The notes below the pieces were generated by a model. It did no database searches and was not told the origin of the DNA. It saw only the letters and a program-made list of their open reading frames with translations. A DNA stretch of 64,000 nucleotides, taken from Actinomycetota bacterium (lineage in GTDB: Bacteria > Actinomycetota > Actinomycetes > S36-B12). Position 1 is the stretch's first letter. Each line of letters opens with the position of its first letter. Positions 49,043 through 62,647 of this stretch are shown one piece after another. The stretch covers positions 1 through 64,000 of the forward strand of contig JAUXRN010000118.1 in the NCBI GenBank assembly GCA_030681835.1, given 5' to 3'. The translations under genes were made by a program, and so were the position numbers.

Positions 49043-49594
49043 TTAGTCGTCGCTGTCGTTCTCGTCGGCGTCGTCGTCGTCGTTCTCATCATCGTCCTCG
49101 TCCTCGTCGTCATCGCCGTCGTCGTCAAAGTCGTCGAGGTCGTCGTCGTCATCGTCGTCGAAGTCGTCGCCGTGGCCACCAATCAGATCGTCATCGTCGT
49201 CGCCGCCATCGAGGTCGTCGTCGCCGTCATCGCCGTCGAGGTAGTCCTGGCCGAGGCCCCCCAGGAGCATGTCGTTTCCGGACCGGCCGTGGATCCGGTC
49301 GTTGCCGCCGTTGCCATAGATCGTGTCGTCTCCTGAGCTTCCGCAGACCAGGTCACGACCGGCGCCGGCCCACACGGTGTGCTTGCCGCGTCCGGTGATC
49401 ACGATGACGTCAGAGTCAGCCGTTCCCTTGATGCGCGACGCACCCGAGACGATCGTCGCGGTCTTGCCCATGCAGGTCGGCAACGGGGTCGCCTGCGCGG
49501 GCGACCCGAATGCGAACGCGGGCACGAACAACAGTGAGGGCACGCTCACCAAGGCGAGCCGGGCAACTGCTGTGCGTCGACGTCTGGATCTCAT
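49043..49594 (-). CDS. Secreted RTX-type calcium-binding protein with Asp-rich tail
   Basis: 183 residues from ATG 49594; GGAGG lies 3 bases upstream, so the earlier ATG of the frame is excluded. Signal peptide (about 1-36, AQA cleavage). Residues about 70-125 are hemolysin-type nonapeptide repeats (GSSGDDTIYGNGGNDRIHG, then GRSGNDMLLGG) that fold as a Ca-binding beta-roll. The remaining 60 residues are almost only Asp/Glu with few Gly/Phe. This is too short for a toxin; binding of Ca or other cations at the surface is plausible. The run of GTC/GAC codons gives a simple-sequence DNA tract. Confidence 0.85.
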   Translation of the reverse strand: MRSRRRRTAVARLALVSVPSLLFVPAFAFGSPAQATPLPTCMGKTATIVSGASRIKGTADSDVIVITGRGKHTVWAGAGRDLVCGSSGDDTIYGNGGNDRIHGRSGNDMLLGGLGQDYLDGDDGDDDLDGGDDDDDLIGGHGDDFDDDDDDDLDDFDDDGDDDEDEDDDENDDDDADENDSDD

Positions 49595-49654
49595 GACAAC
49601 CTCCATGGTTAGCCGTGCTTGTGCTTAGTCAGGTCTGCTCTTTCAGTATTGCCA

Positions 49655-49680: not shown

Positions 49681-50000
49681 GAGGTTAAGAACGGGCAAGG
49701 TCTTCACGTCTGATCGAAACCCGCCCTTGACATGATCGAACTACACGATCGCAGTGCGGGCTGCTCGCGTTGGGCCTATCACGAACCGTGTTGGCGGTGC
49801 GAGGTAGCGGCCACAATCGGCGTATCGCACCCTACGGGCGCTGCCGAGCGGGATGATCGCCTTGGTACGCGACGGCAGGCGAATGGCTCTCGTCGGCGCG
49901 ATGTTGTCCGCTGACACCGTATGTTGAAGTGTAAGGGCACAAGAAACGGCCAAACTACCATGTTGACACTTGCGGCCTTGCTTTGGCAATGCCGGAATCT

Positions 50001-50067
50001 GTTGCGCTGCAACAGGTTTCGGAAGTGGGTCGCCGGGGGCTCGAACCCCGAACCTACGGATTAAAAG
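50001..50067 (-). repeat. att-like repeat 1 carrying the 3' half of tRNA-Lys(UUU)
   Basis: 67 bases repeated at 54879-54945 with one mismatch. The minus strand of 50067-50026 gives anticodon loop CTTTTAA (anticodon UUU), stem TCCGT, variable loop, T arm CGGGG-TTCGAGC-CCCCG, acceptor GCGACCC and discriminator A. The 5' half of the tRNA is absent. Next to it is CTGTTGC-GCT-GCAACAG, a 7-bp inverted repeat. AAGGGCC-type short repeats flank both copies like integrase arm sites. Apart from short unconvincing frames, 49595-50195 holds only this and the inverted repeat at 49655. Confidence 0.8.
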
Positions 50068-50507: not shown

Positions 50508-51481
50508 TCGTCGCGTTCATCGACGAGTGCCGACAGGCCGGTCATGCGGTCGAGTCGATCTGCCGGGTCCTGACCGAACAGGGCTGCCAGATCGCCGCAC
50601 GGACCTACCGGGCCTGGAGCAGCACCGGCCAGCACGTCGCGCCCCGGACGGTGAGTGACGCCGTGGTGATGGACGCGGTCCGCGATGCCGCCTGGACCGT
50701 CGACGCGGACGGGCCGCTGGCCGGCGTCCGCAGGCTGACCCCCGAGGGGCTCTACGGCAGGGGGAAGATGACCGCGCTGGTCAAGCGGAGCCTGCCCGAG
50801 GCGTCTCCCGGGTCGGTCGACCGGGCCATGAGAGCGCTGGGGCTGAACGGGATCCGGCGTGCGAAGGGCATCCGGACCACGATCCCGGGCAAGGACGGCC
50901 GCCGTGCCGGGGACCTGCTGAACCGGGACTTCACCGCGGCCGCCCCGAACCGGGCGTGGGTGATGGACTTCACCTACTGCCGGACGTGGGCCGGGTTCGC
51001 CTACGTGTCGTTCATCGTCGACGTCTTCGCCCAGAAGATCGTCGCCTGGCACGCCGCTACCTGCAAGGACGTCGACCTGGTGATGACGCCGCTGCGGATG
51101 GCGACCTGGCAGCGCGAGCGCGAGGGACACCCGGTCGAACGCGACGAGCTCATCGGCCACGCGGACGCCGGCAGCCAGTACACGTCCATCACCTTCACCG
51201 AGCACCTGGACCTCGAGGGCATCCGGCCCTCCATCGGGTCGGTCGGCGACGCCTATGCCCTGATGGAGTGCGTCATCGGGCTGTTCAAGAGCGAGTGCAT
51301 CCGCACCACCGTCTTCCACCATGGCCCGTACCGGAACCTCGCCGACGTCGAGTGGGCCACCGCCGGCTGGGTCGACTGGTACAACAACCGGCGCCTGCAC
51401 AGTAGCCTCGACTACCAGAGCCCTGAAGAGTTCGAGCACGCCCACTACGCAGCCCTCAACCGAGAGCCGCAACCCGTATAG
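50486..51481 (+). CDS. IS3-family transposase OrfB (DDE domain), read by -1 frameshift
   Basis: The frame is open from before 50462 to 51481 without a good start until GTG 50651, so the product is expected as an OrfAB fusion. The early part VAFIDECRQAG...ICRVL is the usual OrfB beginning. The rve core has D in WVMDFTYCRTW, D in HADAGSQYTS and E in ALMECVIGLFKSE, completing DDE, followed by WVDWYNNRRLHSSLDYQSPEEF. No internal stop, so the element is probably active or recently so. Confidence 0.9.
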   Translation, partial: TRPPRSLIVAFIDECRQAGHAVESICRVLTEQGCQIAARTYRAWSSTGQHVAPRTVSDAVVMDAVRDAAWTVDADGPLAGVRRLTPEGLYGRGKMTALVKRSLPEASPGSVDRAMRALGLNGIRRAKGIRTTIPGKDGRRAGDLLNRDFTAAAPNRAWVMDFTYCRTWAGFAYVSFIVDVFAQKIVAWHAATCKDVDLVMTPLRMATWQREREGHPVERDELIGHADAGSQYTSITFTEHLDLEGIRPSIGSVGDAYALMECVIGLFKSECIRTTVFHHGPYRNLADVEWATAGWVDWYNNRRLHSSLDYQSPEEFEHAHYAALNREPQPV

Positions 51482-54453: not shown

Positions 54454-54878
54454 CAACGAAGTCAGCTTGGGGTGCACGGACCTGAGACGCGAAGCTGGAC
54501 GTGCTCCACAGCCTCCTGAAGACGCTGCGGGCATCGGCCGGCGACTTCCCGCAACTGATCGCTCGTCCGCACTGAGCGACGGGAAACGGCGACACGCTTC
54601 TTCAACCTACGGATTGCGCGTTCTGCAGAATCACGACGCCGACGGCCCGGTTGCCATGCCAGGCCAGGCCCGCGCAGTGGCCGGGTGCGGAATCCGCCGA
54701 CGCAGTCATCGACGACGACGCATCGCGCGCTCTGGAGTCACGCGATCTGCGGATTCCAAAGGGCCTGCGCATCGATTATCCGTAGGTTCAAAGAAGGAAG
54801 GGCCAAAGAAAGGGCCAGAGAAAGGGCTAGACTGCCGATTTGACACCTCTCGTTGTCGCTTGGCAGCACCCAAAACAT
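54454..54878. other. Non-coding flank with short inverted copies of the att core
   Basis: No gene recognised. AACCTACGGATT, part of the tRNA-derived core, recurs at 54604-54615, and its complement ATCCGTAGGTT at 54778-54788. Between 54793 and 54830 three AAGGGCC/T units follow at a 12-bp period, resembling integrase arm sites. A long open frame across here is a product of these repeats. Confidence 0.5.
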
Positions 54879-54945
54879 GTTGCGCTGCAACAGGTTTCGC
54901 AAGTGGGTCGCCGGGGGCTCGAACCCCGAACCTACGGATTAAAAG
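54879..54945 (-). repeat. att-like repeat 2 carrying the 3' half of tRNA-Lys(UUU)
   Basis: Identical to 50001-50067 except one base (54900 C versus 50022 G). The tRNA part is 54945-54904 on the minus strand and again lacks its 5' half. Two AAAGGGCT units at a 12-bp period follow at about 55038-55058. From 54946 to 55509 no gene is recognised. Confidence 0.8.
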
Positions 54946-55509: not shown

Positions 55510-56031
55510 TTAGGTACTCAATCCCAAGTTGATGAGTCGATAGCCCATCGCTTCTGCGCTGACGCCGAACTGCTCAGCCAACTCGGAAACGACTCTGCCC
55601 GGGTTCCCGGTTGCACTTTGGAATCGCTGCAGCGAGGCTCGAACTTGAACCGCGGGCATCAGAAGAGCGGCAGCGAATGCGTTCGCTTCTATCTCTTCGG
55701 AGTCCGTAGCTCGGCTGGACACATCGTCACGGAAGTTGACGCGCACGGTGCTGTCGACGGTGTGCTGGCGACCGGGGTGAAGGAGGAGATGGCCGAGTTC
55801 GTGAGCGATAGTGAAGCGCTGCCTTCGCGGGTGGTTGCCGCTGTTGACAGCTAGCAGCACAACTGATTCCTCGCGAATCAACATCCCGCTGATGCTTCTA
55901 TCCAAGTTCTCGCGAACGAGCTGTGCTCCTTCGAGTTGAACAAGTTGCTCAACGTCGACCGGGAGCGCTTCGAATCCGTGCTTCGCGAGGAGTTCCTCCG
56001 CCGCTTCCTCGGCGGACCGCGTCGCTGTCAC
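55510..56031 (-). CDS. ImmA/IrrE-family metallopeptidase
   Basis: A 173-residue protein. FTIAHELGHLLLH (about 73-85) is the HExxH zinc site; EIEANAFAAALLMP (about 112-125) supplies the third ligand Glu. The N-terminal helix pair and a C-terminal FGVSAEAMGYRLINLG segment are usual in the family. Such proteases cleave partner XRE repressors (ImmA-ImmR) or act in stress regulation (IrrE). Start ATG 56031 overlaps the XRE gene stop (56028-56031), giving a classical regulator-protease pair next to the ubiquitin-like operon. Confidence 0.9.
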   Translation of the reverse strand: MTATRSAEEAAEELLAKHGFEALPVDVEQLVQLEGAQLVRENLDRSISGMLIREESVVLLAVNSGNHPRRQRFTIAHELGHLLLHPGRQHTVDSTVRVNFRDDVSSRATDSEEIEANAFAAALLMPAVQVRASLQRFQSATGNPGRVVSELAEQFGVSAEAMGYRLINLGLST

Positions 56032-56342
56032 TGCGCTCGCTGCGCTTTAGCCGACGTACGGACCAGTTCGATCATCTCGTCGTCGAACGCTTGCTCGACG
56101 TCGTACTCGGCCACCTCAAACTTCGGCATTAGATCCTCCACACTGGTTCCGAGTTGGTCTGCCAACACCGCGACCTGATGTGCGAGTGGTCGCTGGCGGC
56201 CGGCTTCGAGATTTGTGACTGAGACTCGGGTCAGGCCCAGGCGATTCGCGAGCGCCGCCTGCGACATTCCCAAGGCCTGACGGCGAGCCCTGACCTTCAT
56301 GCCGAGCGCTTGGTAAAAGCGGTCCTCCGGAGCTTCGGACAC
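56028..56342 (-). CDS. XRE-family transcriptional regulator
   Basis: 104 residues from GTG 56342. HTH domain about 13-70: LGMKVRARRQALGMSQAALA, RLGLTRVSVTNLEAGRQRPL and LADQLGTSVEDLMP, quoted in parts. A C-terminal Glu-rich tail may contact ImmA. TTGACA (minus, 56377-56372) and GATGAT 17 bases further form its promoter, and the palindrome at 56363-56375 overlaps the -35 end and spacer, so autorepression is likely. The divergent unit is the ubiquitin-like operon, starting 126 bases away. Confidence 0.9.
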   Translation of the reverse strand: MSEAPEDRFYQALGMKVRARRQALGMSQAALANRLGLTRVSVTNLEAGRQRPLAHQVAVLADQLGTSVEDLMPKFEVAEYDVEQAFDDEMIELVRTSAKAQRAQ

Positions 56343-56362
56343 ACCATCATCATCACCCGCGC

Positions 56363-56392
56363 GACACGAAGTGTCAATCTCACAAACGTGTG
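56363..56392. promoter_or_regulatory. Palindromic operators between XRE and ubiquitin-like operon
   Basis: GACAC-GAA-GTGTC (56363-56375) is a perfect 5-bp-arm palindrome; CACA-AACG-TGTG (56381-56392) is a second, similar one (minus strand ACACGTTTGTG). A third symmetric element, TCACCAA-G-TTGGTGA, lies in the leader at 56432-56446. TAAACT at 56418-56423 is a possible -10 of the rightward operon. Confidence 0.6.
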
Positions 56393-56468
56393 TCGCAGCA
56401 CTTGTTAGTCAGTGTGATAAACTTGCCACCGTCACCAAGTTGGTGATGATGACTCCTAAGGAGAAGTC

Positions 56469-56723
56469 ATGAGCAACCAAGGCAAGCCGCCTGTAACGAT
56501 CTTCGTCAACACCCGCGAGTTCCAGTGGCCCGAGAAGCAGATCTCCTACGAGCAGATCTACAACCTGGCGTTCCCGAACGAGCCGGTCAACGACGGAGAC
56601 GTCGCTCGGATCGAGTACTCGCGTGGACACAACGGCGGTGGTGGGGGGACCCTCCACCCTGGAGAGAGCGTCAACGTCAAGGAAAACATGGTCTTCGATG
56701 CCTACGTCACCGTTCGATCGTGA
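56469..56723 (+). CDS. Single-domain ubiquitin-like protein (multiubiquitin family)
   Basis: An 84-residue protein with AAGGAG 5-6 bases before ATG 56469. The whole length matches one repeat of the prokaryotic multiubiquitin domain: PVTIFVNTREFQWPEKQISY, YNLAFPNEPVNDGDVARIEY, LHPGESVNVKENMVFDAYVT. There is no C-terminal GG; it ends TVRS. In ubiquitin-like systems this protein would be adenylated by the E1-like protein encoded next (overlap 26 bases) and attached to a target. Conjugation is not demonstrable from sequence. Codon use is less GC-rich than in the neighbours, suggesting transfer. Confidence 0.85.
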   Translation: MSNQGKPPVTIFVNTREFQWPEKQISYEQIYNLAFPNEPVNDGDVARIEYSRGHNGGGGGTLHPGESVNVKENMVFDAYVTVRS

Positions 56724-57897
56724 TCCGTCGACTCGTCGACTGCTCGACGAGGACTACTGCCTCTCGTTCGAGGGCAACCACCTAATAGTCGAGCGAGTGC
56801 CGTACGTGACGGCCGCCAAGGTCGTCACGTACGGTCGGCTCGCCCTGCCAGTCACCTTCAGCGGCGACGTCCTCCAGGACAGCTCTGGGGACCACAGGAT
56901 CTGGTTCATCGGTGAACAGCCTTGCGACCAGAACGGCCAGCCGCTCCCAGGACCATCGCCCGAGGCGCACGCGGTCACTCAGGACCTCATTGCGAACTTC
57001 ATGATCTCTAGCAAGCCGAAGAACGGCGGGACCTTCGCCAACACCTACGACAAGATCACGTCCTATGTGCGCGTCCTGAGTCACCCGGCGCACGTGCTGG
57101 ACCCGACGGTGACCGCTACCCCGGGTGCTGGCTGGACTGAGATCCCCGACGACCTCCCCTTCGTCTATCCCGACACTGGCACCGCGCGCGCTGGCCTCGC
57201 AACGATGAACGCGAAGTTCAGGGGCCAGCGCATCGGCATCATCGGCTTGGGCGGCACCGGCAGCTACATTCTGGACCAGGTGTCCAAGACTTGGGTCGAC
57301 GCCATCGACCTGTTCGACGGCGACGTCTTCGACAATCACAACGCCTACCGCGCGCCGGGCGCTGCCGACATTGACGATCTGAAGCTACGTCCGAATAAGG
57401 CTGAGCACTTCGCTCGCGTCTACTCACACATGCACACAGGAATAACCGCACACTCGTTCTTCATCACTGCCGACAACCTAGACCAGCTCGGCGACTGCAC
57501 GTTCGTCTTCGTGGCCGCCGCCGATGCCGATGACAAGCCCGCCATCCTCGCGTCGCTCCGGGAGCGGGACATACCCACGATCGAGGTCGGCATGGGCATC
57601 CGAGACGAAGGCGGACGTCTTTCGGGGCTCCTCGCAGCCGTCAATCACTTTCCCCCTGACATGTCGGAGGCCGCGATCTCCACGTCAACTGGCGGGGTAG
57701 ACGAGTACGACCGAAACATTCAGACCGCCGACCTCAACTGCCTGAATGCGATGCTCGCGGTGGTGAATTGGAAGAAGTACCTCACGTACTACGCCGAGTT
57801 CGAGCCGGTCGATGAAACGGTGTATCGGGTTTTCACGGGTACCACCCGCAGCGGCCGAGATGGCGCCGACGCAAGTATCGAGGAGGCCGAGTCGTGA
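56698..57897 (+). CDS. E1-like ThiF-family protein with N-terminal DUF6791-like domain
   Basis: 399 residues from ATG 56698 (overlaps the ubiquitin-like gene by 26 bases). N-terminal region (about 1-165) includes RIWFIGEQPCDQNG, with C76 in a setting like E2-type or DUF6791 proteins. The ThiF/E1 part (about 170-375) has the nucleotide loop GIIGLGGTGSYIL (about 180), IDLFDGDVFDNHNAYR, the ATP-binding Lys in RPNKAEHF and FVFVAAADADD. A Cys near 348 (DLNCLNA) could take the thioester, but it is not in the canonical place and there is no CxxC zinc site. It would activate the ubiquitin-like partner and perhaps transfer it itself. Confidence 0.82.
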   Translation: MPTSPFDRDPSTRRLLDEDYCLSFEGNHLIVERVPYVTAAKVVTYGRLALPVTFSGDVLQDSSGDHRIWFIGEQPCDQNGQPLPGPSPEAHAVTQDLIANFMISSKPKNGGTFANTYDKITSYVRVLSHPAHVLDPTVTATPGAGWTEIPDDLPFVYPDTGTARAGLATMNAKFRGQRIGIIGLGGTGSYILDQVSKTWVDAIDLFDGDVFDNHNAYRAPGAADIDDLKLRPNKAEHFARVYSHMHTGITAHSFFITADNLDQLGDCTFVFVAAADADDKPAILASLRERDIPTIEVGMGIRDEGGRLSGLLAAVNHFPPDMSEAAISTSTGGVDEYDRNIQTADLNCLNAMLAVVNWKKYLTYYAEFEPVDETVYRVFTGTTRSGRDGADASIEEAES

Positions 57898-58280
57898 GGT
57901 TGACCAACATGGTTCCTGAGTTTATGACGTCGTTTCCCGAGCAGTTGGAGCCGGGCCATCTCTACGTGTCTACCCACTTCTCGACCGCAGCGCACCTATG
58001 TGCCTGCAGCTGCGGCAGCGAGGTCATCACGCCGCTCTCTCCAGCCCAATGGGTGCTTACGTTCGACGGCACCATCTCAATGAGGCCGTCCATTGGGAAC
58101 TGGGCGTTGCCATGCCAGTCTCACTACGTCATCGACCACGGCGCGATCCGATGGGCTCGCGGCTTCACCCGCGACGAGATCCAGCGCAACCGCGAGTCGG
58201 ACCACCGGACATTGGATGCTGCCTATGCCACCCAGGGCGGATGGTGGAGCCGCCTGTTTCACCGCCGGAAAGGAACCTGA
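57894..58280 (+). CDS. DUF6527-like Cys/His-rich protein of the ubiquitin-like operon
   Basis: A 128-residue protein; GTG 57894 overlaps the E1-like stop (GTGA). LYVSTHFSTAAHLCACSCG gives H34 and C36/C38/C40; PSIGNWALPCQSHYVI gives C74 and H77. The arrangement suggests a metal site. DUF6527-type proteins accompany multiubiquitin/ThiF operons; I cannot say from the sequence whether this is a peptidase, a ligase adaptor or a structural zinc protein. It is the last gene of the coupled set. Confidence 0.75.
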   Translation: MRLTNMVPEFMTSFPEQLEPGHLYVSTHFSTAAHLCACSCGSEVITPLSPAQWVLTFDGTISMRPSIGNWALPCQSHYVIDHGAIRWARGFTRDEIQRNRESDHRTLDAAYATQGGWWSRLFHRRKGT

Positions 58281-58794
58281 CTGGCGCCCTCCGACGGTCT
58301 CGTTCCGGTGTCCTTCGGCTGCACCTGTCCGTTTTGCCCGGAACCACTTCGGAGATTGGAACTCCGGACCAACGCAACACAAGCGAGACACGACGTGCCC
58401 TGGTCCTGGCCGCAGGCGCGTGGCGGGTCCGACAAGTAGCTGACGCCGACCTCGAGGGCGCCAAGGACTGCCAGCCCCTGACGACTCGCCACCGCGACAC
58501 CGCCATTCGCTCACCTGAACGCCGAAGCGCCCAAAGGACAAAATGCAACCACTAGCCGGGCTAGCATCCCGACGCGCGACGAGTACGCGCTGCGGTCAAT
58601 CTAGGCCAGTCCCCGGTGGCTGAGCCCGCGTTACAACCCACCGAGGATCCGTTGACAAGGCGCTAGTGCTCTTGATGAGCGTCCGAATGCGAGGCACCGA
58701 AGGGGTCGCACCGTTGACCGGGTAACGGCGCTTGCGCGTCGCTGCCGGCGGCCTCGGGCTGCCGGGCTACCACTGCCCTGGAAGGACGTTCCTG
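58281..58794. other. Intergenic stretch without a recognised gene
   Basis: Frames present here have no domain or start support. It separates the ubiquitin-like operon from the DUF4192 backbone; GC content is more mixed than on the right. A possible Shine-Dalgarno sequence, GGAAGGA, belongs to the DUF4192 start. Confidence 0.4.
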
Positions 58795-59988
58795 ATGTCG
58801 GACTCCGTGATCACCTCTGCTGGACGGTTGACCCTGTCCAGTCCCGACGCGTTCCTCGCGTCGATCCCGCACATGATCGGCTTCCCGCCCGAGGACTCAA
58901 TCGTCATCGTCGGCCTCGCTCCCGACCACACGGGTGCAGGATCGACGGTCCGCGTGACCCAGCGCTTCGACCGACCACCGGCCGGGATCGCCGGCGACGA
59001 GGCGCGGCAGCTCGCCGCCCAGGCTGCCGAGCCGATGATCAGGTCAGGGTCAATCGAGGTGATCATCGCCGTGTTCGCCGACCAGTACCCCGAACCGGAT
59101 CGCGAGCTGCCCGACGCGGCGCTGGTCGACGCGCTCATCACTGCCCTGGACGACGGCGGTGTCGGCATCCGCGACGCCCTCTACACCGACGGCACGTCGC
59201 GCTGGTCCTACGGCTGCGACAACCCGAGCTGCTGCCCTCCTACCGGTCGGGTCATCTCCGAGAAGGTGCGAACCCTGGTCGCCGCGGAGTTCGCGCTGGC
59301 CGGATCGGCGATGGTCGACTCCCGCGAGGTGCTCGCCGCCGAGGTCGCGCCCGCCGACGCGGCCGCACGCGCGCAGGTCGCCGACTGCGTCCGCGCAGCC
59401 GAGCAGGCCCGCGACGACGCCCTCGCCGCGCCCGGAACCTCGCACACCACCGACCGCCCGACACGTGCCAGGGAGGACTGGCGCGAGCAGTCCATCACGC
59501 AGATCGCCGCCCTCACCTCCGGCGAGCCGGCCAGCCCCCAGGAGTTCGCCCGTGTCGCGGTCGGGCTGGGCGACATCCGCGTGCGCGACACCGTCCTGTG
59601 GGATCTCATGCAGCCGTCCGCCGACCCACCGGCAGCGATCGCGGGCCTGACGAATGTCGTCCGTCACGCCCCCGACGGCCATGTGGCCCCCGCCGCGACG
59701 GTCCTGGCGATCTGCCACTGGACATCCGGCGACGGCGCCCGCGCGAACGCCGCCCTGCAACGCGCCGACGACGACAACCCCGACTACTCGCTGGCGGCCC
59801 TGGTACGCACCAGCCTCAGCGCTGGGCTGCCACCCCAGTCGTGGCGCGACGCCCTTGCCGACCTGACCCGCGACACCTGCCGGCACGGCGAGCCTCCGCG
59901 TACCCCGCAGCCTGCCGCCGGCCCAGTCGTGGCCTCACCGCACCGTCGCGCCTCGATCGCCGCATCCCAGCCGGGTCTGGCCCTCTAG
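58795..59988 (+). CDS. DUF4192 domain-containing protein
   Basis: 397 residues from ATG 58795 (GGAAGGA upstream; the longer frame is rejected). LSSPDAFLASIPHMIGFPPEDSIVIVGL (quoted in part) is the standard N-terminus of DUF4192, and the middle part has SRWSYGCDNPSCCPPTGRVI with two Cys pairs. The C-terminal half is helical with TPR-like segments (APAATVLAICHWTSGDGARAN). The family is actinobacterial and is frequent on plasmids and integrative elements; its function is unknown. It is first in a group of plus-strand backbone-like genes. Confidence 0.9.
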   Translation: MSDSVITSAGRLTLSSPDAFLASIPHMIGFPPEDSIVIVGLAPDHTGAGSTVRVTQRFDRPPAGIAGDEARQLAAQAAEPMIRSGSIEVIIAVFADQYPEPDRELPDAALVDALITALDDGGVGIRDALYTDGTSRWSYGCDNPSCCPPTGRVISEKVRTLVAAEFALAGSAMVDSREVLAAEVAPADAAARAQVADCVRAAEQARDDALAAPGTSHTTDRPTRAREDWREQSITQIAALTSGEPASPQEFARVAVGLGDIRVRDTVLWDLMQPSADPPAAIAGLTNVVRHAPDGHVAPAATVLAICHWTSGDGARANAALQRADDDNPDYSLAALVRTSLSAGLPPQSWRDALADLTRDTCRHGEPPRTPQPAAGPVVASPHRRASIAASQPGLAL

Positions 59989-61794: not shown

Positions 61795-61954
61795 GATCTG
61801 GCTGACGTCGCCTGCCGGCTGCCCTCACCGGGGGCAGCCGGATGCGAGGCACCAGCGCGCTGGACACCGTTGACCCAAGTAGGAGGACAACTCGTCCGGC
61901 AGCGCAAAGGAGCACAGGTGTCCCAGTCCCCATCCCCGTGTGGCCAGGTGTCCC

Positions 61955-62647
61955 ATGCCTGACGCCGAGCCGACGCGTGATTTCCGTGGGCAATCCCTGC
62001 CCGGAGCCGTCTTCGACGGGCAGGACCTGCGCGAGGCACAGTTCGACCGGGCCGACCTCACGGGCGCGTCCTTCGTCGGCGCCCGGCTGGACGGTGCGAG
62101 CTTCTGCGGTGCCGACCTGACGGGCGCGAGCCTGCGCGAGGCGGTGCTCGACGCCGCCGAGCTCAGGGGGGCGTGCCTGCGGGAAGCCGACCTGACCGGC
62201 GCGACCGCCCTGTATGCCGATCTGCGCCGGGCCGACCTGAGCGGAGCGAGGCTCACCGACGCGGACCTCACGTGCGCGACCCTGAGCGGCGTCGACGCCA
62301 CCGGGGCGAGGTTCACCCGCACCCAGCTCGCGGGGGCCAACGTGCGCGGGGCGGCCCTGACGGGCGCGACATTCACCGGCGCGAGCCTTGCTGATGCGGA
62401 CCTGGCCGGCAGCGACCTGACCCAGGCGCAGTTCCCCGACACGACTGGTGCCGCTGTCGCGGTGTTCCTCGCCCGGGCCGAGGCGCACTGGTCCACCGGG
62501 CAGGTGCTGTCCCGGATCGCTGACGACCTGGGGATCGCCGAGTACACCCACGACATCCAGCCGTTGGTCGACCGGACCGTCGAGGCGGGACGCCCGGTGT
62601 CGGCGCCGCGCACCACACGGCAGCCTCCCCCGATCTCATGGGCGTGA
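61955..62647 (+). CDS. Pentapeptide-repeat protein with helical C-terminus
   Basis: 230 residues from ATG 61955 (GTG 61940 possible). About 30 tandem pentapeptides of the A(D/N)LxG type (residues about 10-160; for example ADLTGASFVGARLDGASF) form a right-handed beta-helix. The final 70 residues (VFLARAEAHWSTGQVLSRIADDLGIA) are a helical cap or extra domain. Some such proteins mimic DNA and protect gyrase, others have no known role. It converges on the XRE gene with 6 bases between stops. Confidence 0.88.
   Translation: MPDAEPTRDFRGQSLPGAVFDGQDLREAQFDRADLTGASFVGARLDGASFCGADLTGASLREAVLDAAELRGACLREADLTGATALYADLRRADLSGARLTDADLTCATLSGVDATGARFTRTQLAGANVRGAALTGATFTGASLADADLAGSDLTQAQFPDTTGAAVAVFLARAEAHWSTGQVLSRIADDLGIAEYTHDIQPLVDRTVEAGRPVSAPRTTRQPPPISWA

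Follow-up and report, generated by a model that had tools for sequence, protein, structure and literature searches.

How might a ubiquitin-like protein (Ubl) that lacks a terminal Gly-Gly be activated and passed on where neither a JAB protease nor a separate conjugating enzyme (E2) is encoded beside it? The question is raised by a five-gene locus on a contig of a metagenome-assembled actinobacterium (GenBank assembly GCA_030681835.1, contig JAUXRN010000118.1; the 64,000 nucleotides analyzed are called the window). Three of its genes run rightward, encoding the Ubl, an activating enzyme (E1) and a DUF6527 protein, and two run leftward, encoding an XRE repressor and an ImmA metallopeptidase. An earlier description made from the letters of the window, here the sequence-only reading, had listed a single-domain multiubiquitin-type protein, a ThiF-type E1 with an N-terminal DUF6791 region, a DUF6527 protein, overlaps of 26 and 4 bases among these genes, and a divergent XRE-ImmA pair. 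Pfam matches and coordinates confirm this account in full; the overlaps are exact, and the XRE and ImmA genes overlap by 4 bases too. All domain matches of the five proteins (Multi_ubiq, DUF6791 plus ThiF, DUF6527, HTH and Peptidase_M78) exceed the cut-off, and the observation as first described is sound, with an assignment to families that is near certain. The analysis reported here indicates that the locus, an actinobacterial copy, one of hundreds, of a widespread and already known operon family whose products probably join a small Ubl to other molecules, is most likely a Bub-pathway relative that works without a protease, and perhaps without a thiol, and is switched on by DNA damage.

Conservation of the operon

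A survey of homolog neighborhoods had been proposed on the view that genes never found together would speak against a common pathway. The genes do occur together, and across phyla: the identical three are found in Actinomycetota, Bacillota, Cyanobacteriota, Bacteroidota, Pseudomonadota and archaea, and a scan of genome contigs confirmed at least 485 relatives, archaeal ones among them. The Ubl gene was present at 97 of 100 fetched loci and the DUF6527 gene at 78 of 85 (relatives are numbered with the prefix L, the window contig itself being L017). Further operons come from Streptomyces, Arthrobacter, Rhizobium, Pseudomonas, Cytobacillus, Leptolyngbya, Tunicatimonas and others, and on a Rhodococcus plasmid all five genes are laid out as in the window, the overlaps again being of 26 and 4 bases. 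With the three genes found together in one phylum after another, their arrangement is not due to chance, and the data support a conserved unit made up of an E1-like enzyme, its Ubl and the DUF6527 protein.

Within its own phylum the system is rare (3 of 396 genomes). It was found in 114 plasmid records and at four loci in the viral contigs searched, while the phage records searched gave no match. Since about half of the Ubls have at most 115 residues (47 of 92 loci), a single domain is common. No JAB gene and no separate E2 gene was found in the window or among the annotated DUF6791-type relatives, so that their absence, correctly remarked upon for the window, is the rule for this subtype. JAB-type operons, found via the BubCD sequence, encode multiubiquitin alone or fused to E2/UBC, an E2/UBC protein, a JAB-E1 and DUF6527.

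The serine tail and the gene overlap

A pattern that runs through the family across phyla joins a Ser end of the Ubl and an exact 26-base overlap of the Ubl and E1 genes to an E1 with no conserved Cys. Among 80 non-redundant loci (those that best matched an alignment headed by the window protein), the C-terminal residue of the Ubl is Ser in 79, archaea included; every one of the 80 has Lys, Arg or Gln as its penultimate residue, and the fourth-last is Thr in 72. In place of the C-terminal Gly-Gly of the ThiS/MoaD sulfur carriers, 79 of the 80 thus end in Lys, Arg or Gln followed by Ser. The TVRS tail of the window had been read correctly as non-GG and treated as an oddity; it turns out to be conserved throughout the family.

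At 95 of 97 loci the Ubl reading frame, stop codon included, runs 26 bases into the E1 gene. The overlap holds the final seven Ubl residues, the stop codon and two bases of the preceding codon in one frame, and the first eight E1 codons plus two bases in the other. The terminal Ser is encoded by TCG, TCA, TCT or TCC, while E1 residue 8, read from the same bases, may be Arg, His, Leu or Pro. At the third position of E1 codon 7, 79 of 80 loci have T; a C there would leave the E1 unchanged for nearly all residues observed but give the Ubl a Pro end. The Ubl stop codon itself varies (TAG, TAA or TGA), and two loci without the overlap (L043 and L059) nevertheless have a Ser-terminated Ubl. The use of all four TCN codons, the varying E1 residue, the fixed T and the retention of Ser where the overlap is missing together argue that the Ser is maintained on account of the Ubl. 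Because the loci were selected by E1 motifs distant from the overlap region, the tail pattern is not a selection effect.

Given that neither a JAB nor an E2 gene is present, the Ubl appears to be made in its final form, and the most economical reading is that DUF6791 operons do without Ubl maturation. Ubl ends vary among the JAB-type Bub operons, which fits trimming by JAB. The fixed Ser ending and the fixed overlap suggest a chemistry unlike that of ordinary ubiquitin. No earlier report of the Ser end, the exact 26-base overlap or the absent conserved cysteine was found in the literature searched.

The E1-like enzyme and the DUF6527 protein

The AlphaFold2 (AF2) model of the E1 is confident (mean predicted local distance difference test score, pLDDT, 90.9), and when its residues 165-392 were compared with solved folds the Citrobacter BubCD entries came first (Z 24.0, root-mean-square deviation 2.5, 215 residues aligned), followed by ThiF, the NEDD8 E1, MccB and UBA5; BubCD is also the best profile match of the E1. 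Across 71 E1 relatives the invariant residues comprise G183, G185 and G186 of the nucleotide motif, D207, D209, N215, R218 and K234, and Y337, the last lying in a low-confidence segment of the model, which suits a crossover loop. The BubCD residue Y370, mutated to Phe in Protein Data Bank (PDB) entry 9eav, is conserved in seven aligned Bub relatives; in the alignment Y337 stands opposite the nearby Y362, and Y370 faces a gap. Bub E1s are said to use an oxyester.

The sequence-only reading had placed an E2-like activity within the E1 and singled out C76 and C348. Neither residue is invariant: no Cys is conserved throughout the 71 E1s, and the invariant catalytic Cys of a Cap2/Bil-type E1-E2 fusion is accordingly missing from the set. 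Position 348 is Ala in 50 relatives and Cys in just 7, on which grounds C348 was rejected as a catalytic residue, and C76 is present in 61, the other ten, all actinobacterial, having Arg, His, Val or Ser. Nor did profile comparison show similarity to E2 enzymes: the 71 members gave no E2 match in Pfam at E values up to 10 and a small hhalign test of DUF6791 against five prokaryotic E2 domains, run with controls, returned a probability of 0.1.

In the DUF6527 protein, H34, C36, C40, C74 and H77 are invariant in 60 relatives, and the cysteines with the second histidine form a metal-type signature (C36-x3-C40, then C74-x2-H77); from these residues the protein is likely to bind zinc. Its model is confident (pLDDT 92) and found no match in the PDB (best Z 3.2), which is why no fold is claimed for it, RING-like included. 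The literature searched yielded no papers on DUF6791 or DUF6527.

The regulatory switch

The XRE-ImmA pair had been taken for a damage-type switch, and profile comparison bears this out: the CapH/CapP DNA-damage switch is supported as its best match, with the ImmA protein (P0004) scoring much higher against capP than against the other ImmA families of PADLOC. An ImmA gene lies at most 3 kb upstream of the operon at 56 of 86 loci, 45 of them divergent, as against 1 of 79 equivalent downstream stretches, and the capP profile is matched by 37 of 136 upstream proteins. CapW or CapH+CapP has been reported at 219 of 544 Bub operons (PMC13373217).

The palindromic operators suggested for the intergenic region fared unevenly. 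A perfect 11-nucleotide (nt) inverted pair (56347-56357 and 56442-56452) is matched in only 0.4% of shuffles, with its arms 84 nt apart, while the best compact palindrome (56432-56446) is equalled or beaten in 7.6% of shuffles; a compact palindromic operator, not distinguishable from shuffles, was set aside. Evidence for an operator is thin.

Table 1. Features of the locus, in window coordinates (aa, amino acids).
Feature	Position	Strand	Details
Ubl, single multiubiquitin-type domain	56469-56723	+	84 aa; Pfam PF14452 Multi_ubiq E 4e-14; C-terminus ...FDAYVTVRS
DUF6791-E1 (ThiF/PRK06153-like) adenylating enzyme	56698-57897	+	399 aa; Pfam DUF6791 E 2e-37, ThiF 1.5e-7; NCBIfam
DUF6791 domain	56734-57177	+	Pfam PF20590; stands where Bub E1 has its JAB domain
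E1 adenylation domain, residues 165-392	57190-57873	+	nearest solved fold Citrobacter BubCD
DUF6527 protein, Cys/His-rich, likely zinc-binding	57894-58280	+	128 aa; Pfam PF20137 E 1e-20
ImmA/CapP-like HEXXH metallopeptidase (P0004)	55510-56031	-	173 aa; Peptidase_M78 2.5e-24; PADLOC capP 4e-36
XRE/CapH-like repressor (P0005)	56028-56342	-	104 aa; HTH_31 1e-12; PADLOC capH 6e-11
Dual-coding Ubl/E1 overlap	56698-56723	+	26 bases
Divergent control region	56343-56468	.	11-nt inverted pair and promoter-like sites, both strands
tRNA-Lys 3' fragment, probable attachment scar	54878-54945	-	left of locus; 68-nt repeat of 50000-50067, 99% identical

Genomic setting

The two tRNA-Lys 3' fragments lie 4878 nt apart, with an IS3-like transposase (50651-51481) and a class-V aminotransferase between them, and the intact tRNA-Lys(TTT) is on another contig (C85) of the same genome. 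The pair looks like tandem integration scars, and the locus beside them is probably in a genomic island. The DUF4192 protein (58732-59988) encoded downstream of the operon may belong to the same island, as may a pentapeptide-repeat protein (61940-62647). Elsewhere in the window, on the reverse strand (49043-49606), is a predicted secreted protein with a long Asp-rich, calcium-binding-like C-terminal repeat.

Several neighbors of related operons were recorded as well. Genes for a DarT-type ADP-ribosyltransferase (DUF4433) and a macro-domain protein adjoin L010 (7482-9122) and L148 (5457-7243), spanning both DUF6791-type and JAB-type operons, and are a possible recurrent partner; a PfkB-type kinase and a 7-cyano-7-deazaguanine synthase are likewise encoded near operons of both subtypes, L016 (657-2428) and L149 (5885-7706). 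UvrD-helicase genes adjoin or flank the operon at the rhizobial and cyanobacterial loci L007 (1788-13131) and L011 (1-3208), L007 also having a PD-(D/E)XK nuclease, and these may be parts of a larger defense island. A third layout occurs on a Mycobacteroides plasmid (L144, 2532-4912), where a more distantly related E1 and a small protein of unknown kind accompany a two-domain Ubl ending in GGVA; ImmA is nearby, and no DUF6527 is annotated.

Discussion

On balance we favor the view that the locus is a DUF6791-subtype polyubiquitin-like (polyUbl)/E1/DUF6527 operon, related to Bub and lacking BubB and the JAB protease, that works as follows. By homology, the CapH-like repressor would keep the divergent promoters off until it is cleaved by the CapP-like protease, presumably in response to single-stranded DNA (ssDNA) produced by DNA damage or phage. 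The Ubl would be translated directly in its final, Ser-ended form, its level tied to that of the E1 if the 26-base overlap couples their translation. The E1 domain, in which the adenylation residues are conserved, would adenylate the terminal Ser carboxylate, and the activated Ubl might then be passed on without a conserved Cys, either straight to the target or via an oxygen nucleophile; speculative candidates for the latter are Tyr337, invariant and in the crossover loop, and Ser104 of DUF6791. DUF6791 and the putative zinc protein DUF6527 may, as a further speculation, select or position the target. We put forward only tentatively, and as rather doubtful, the wider generalization that the whole DUF6791 subtype is a self-contained Ubl pathway with no tail protease, separate E2 or catalytic thiol, in which the E1 would charge the Ser carboxylate, transfer would be direct or by an oxygen nucleophile, and the overlap, conserved from archaea to actinobacteria, would fix the register between the tail and the E1 start.

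Several points weigh against the favored view. The capP match of P0004 spans model positions 3-154 of 242, the part that follows being absent, and the closest relative by E1 (L018, with an 84% identical E1) has a different XRE/ImmA pair, which indicates that switches are swapped and are exchangeable, not intrinsic. C76 could serve in those relatives that carry it, and DUF6791 may hide an E2-like fold. Biochemistry of the DUF6791 subtype was not found in the literature searched, two key Bub papers lying outside that search.

The best-surviving alternative concerns purpose and is compatible with the mechanism proposed: the locus may be a stress-response or mobile-element housekeeping module, not an anti-phage defense. 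The plasmid records and the attachment scars adjoining the window locus fit such a role, protection against phage has yet to be demonstrated for Bub according to PMC13373217, and ImmR/ImmA pairs control conjugative elements too (PMC10233336). The clear preference of the window pair for capP speaks for defense, CapP switches being tied to immune operons (PMC13373217), and we regard the housekeeping role as plausible while leaning slightly the other way.

An alternative that touches the mechanism itself is a true E1-E2 fusion as in Cap2, in which DUF6791 would be a diverged E2 and C76 would carry the Ubl as a thioester, having been lost secondarily in some actinobacteria. Fusions like Cap2 exist, the order helix-strands-Cys-helix is predicted for the N-terminal region, and most relatives have C76 together with an invariant His (H66) ten residues earlier, a Cys-His spacing that is also that of eukaryotic E2s. 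However, H66 precedes the last strand where the His of an E2 comes after it, the ten relatives with another residue for C76 keep the operon, and no E2 was found by Pfam in the 71 members or by the small hhalign test against five prokaryotic E2 domains, so that we consider the fusion unlikely. That the E1 instead activates the Ubl tail in a small-molecule or cofactor pathway of the ThiS/MoaD or MccB style, with nothing conjugated to protein, is less probable still, for although MccB, ThiF, MoeB and UBA5 are among its closest folds and MccB activates a non-Gly C-terminus, the tail lacks GG, the conserved unit has no rhodanese, sulfurtransferase or biosynthetic gene, and in both fold and profile the E1 comes closest to BubCD, which is a conjugation enzyme.

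Of the sequence-only interpretation, then, the conserved unit, the co-occurrence of its genes and the CapH/CapP-like switch are supported; the E1-fused E2 lacks support, and the claim to a new minimal pathway has been overtaken. If the E1 does charge a C-terminal Ser without a thiol relay, ubiquitin-like conjugation would here follow a different chemical route, and the role of DUF6791, a domain of no known function, in the place of E2 and JAB would come to light.

Comparison with known systems

The operon type was described in 2006 by Iyer, Burroughs and Aravind as type 6e, in its "domain X" form, and their listing includes an actinobacterium, "Fsp." (PMC1779556); the supposed new pathway, a relative of Bub, had thus been overtaken by the literature. 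Type 6e and the window share a multiubiquitin-family Ubl (polyUbl in type 6e), an E1 with a distinct N-terminal domain replacing JAB (DUF6791, then ThiF, in the window) and a C-x(3)-C metal-binding protein, for which the paper prints H-x2-C as the second pair where the window has C74-x2-H77. We infer that domain X is DUF6791, a name the paper does not use, and we take "Fsp." to be Frankia. The window differs in having one Ubl domain and, like its annotated relatives, in having no inactive E2/RWD gene, a variation that the paper allows for. The ZDHYS365 multi-ubiquitin protein of PDB entry 9cd2, which ends in VTQTDKS, belongs to the same Ubl subfamily and has several Ubl domains against the one of the window; its best plasmid homolog sits in a DUF6791-type operon.

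The Bil and Cap2 E1-E2 systems have in common with the locus an E1-type adenylation of a C-terminus, but they have a catalytic E2 domain and a JAB gene, neither of which was found in the window locus. The likeness to CapH+CapP lies in a divergent XRE repressor and HEXXH metallopeptidase beside an immune-type operon, together with the best profile matches; the window CapP is shorter, and ssDNA-activated repressor cleavage is presumed by homology. The Bub pathway has reportedly been studied by Gong (2025) and Ye (2026), with structures under PDB entries 9ea4-9eav. Bub and the window locus share the multiubiquitin-type Ubl, the fold of the E1 domain, for which BubCD is nearest, DUF6527 (also present at the JAB-type Bub loci L143, L145, L147 and L148) and switches of the CapH+CapP or CapW kind. 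They differ in that BubB (E2/UBC), present at the JAB-type loci L145, L147 and L148, is absent from the window and the DUF6791-type relatives, in that the window E1 has DUF6791 instead of the BubC JAB domain, and in that the Ser end and the 26-base overlap are fixed in the DUF6791 subtype. The family and the switch are already known; what is worth a bench test is the Ser end, the fixed overlap and the missing Cys.

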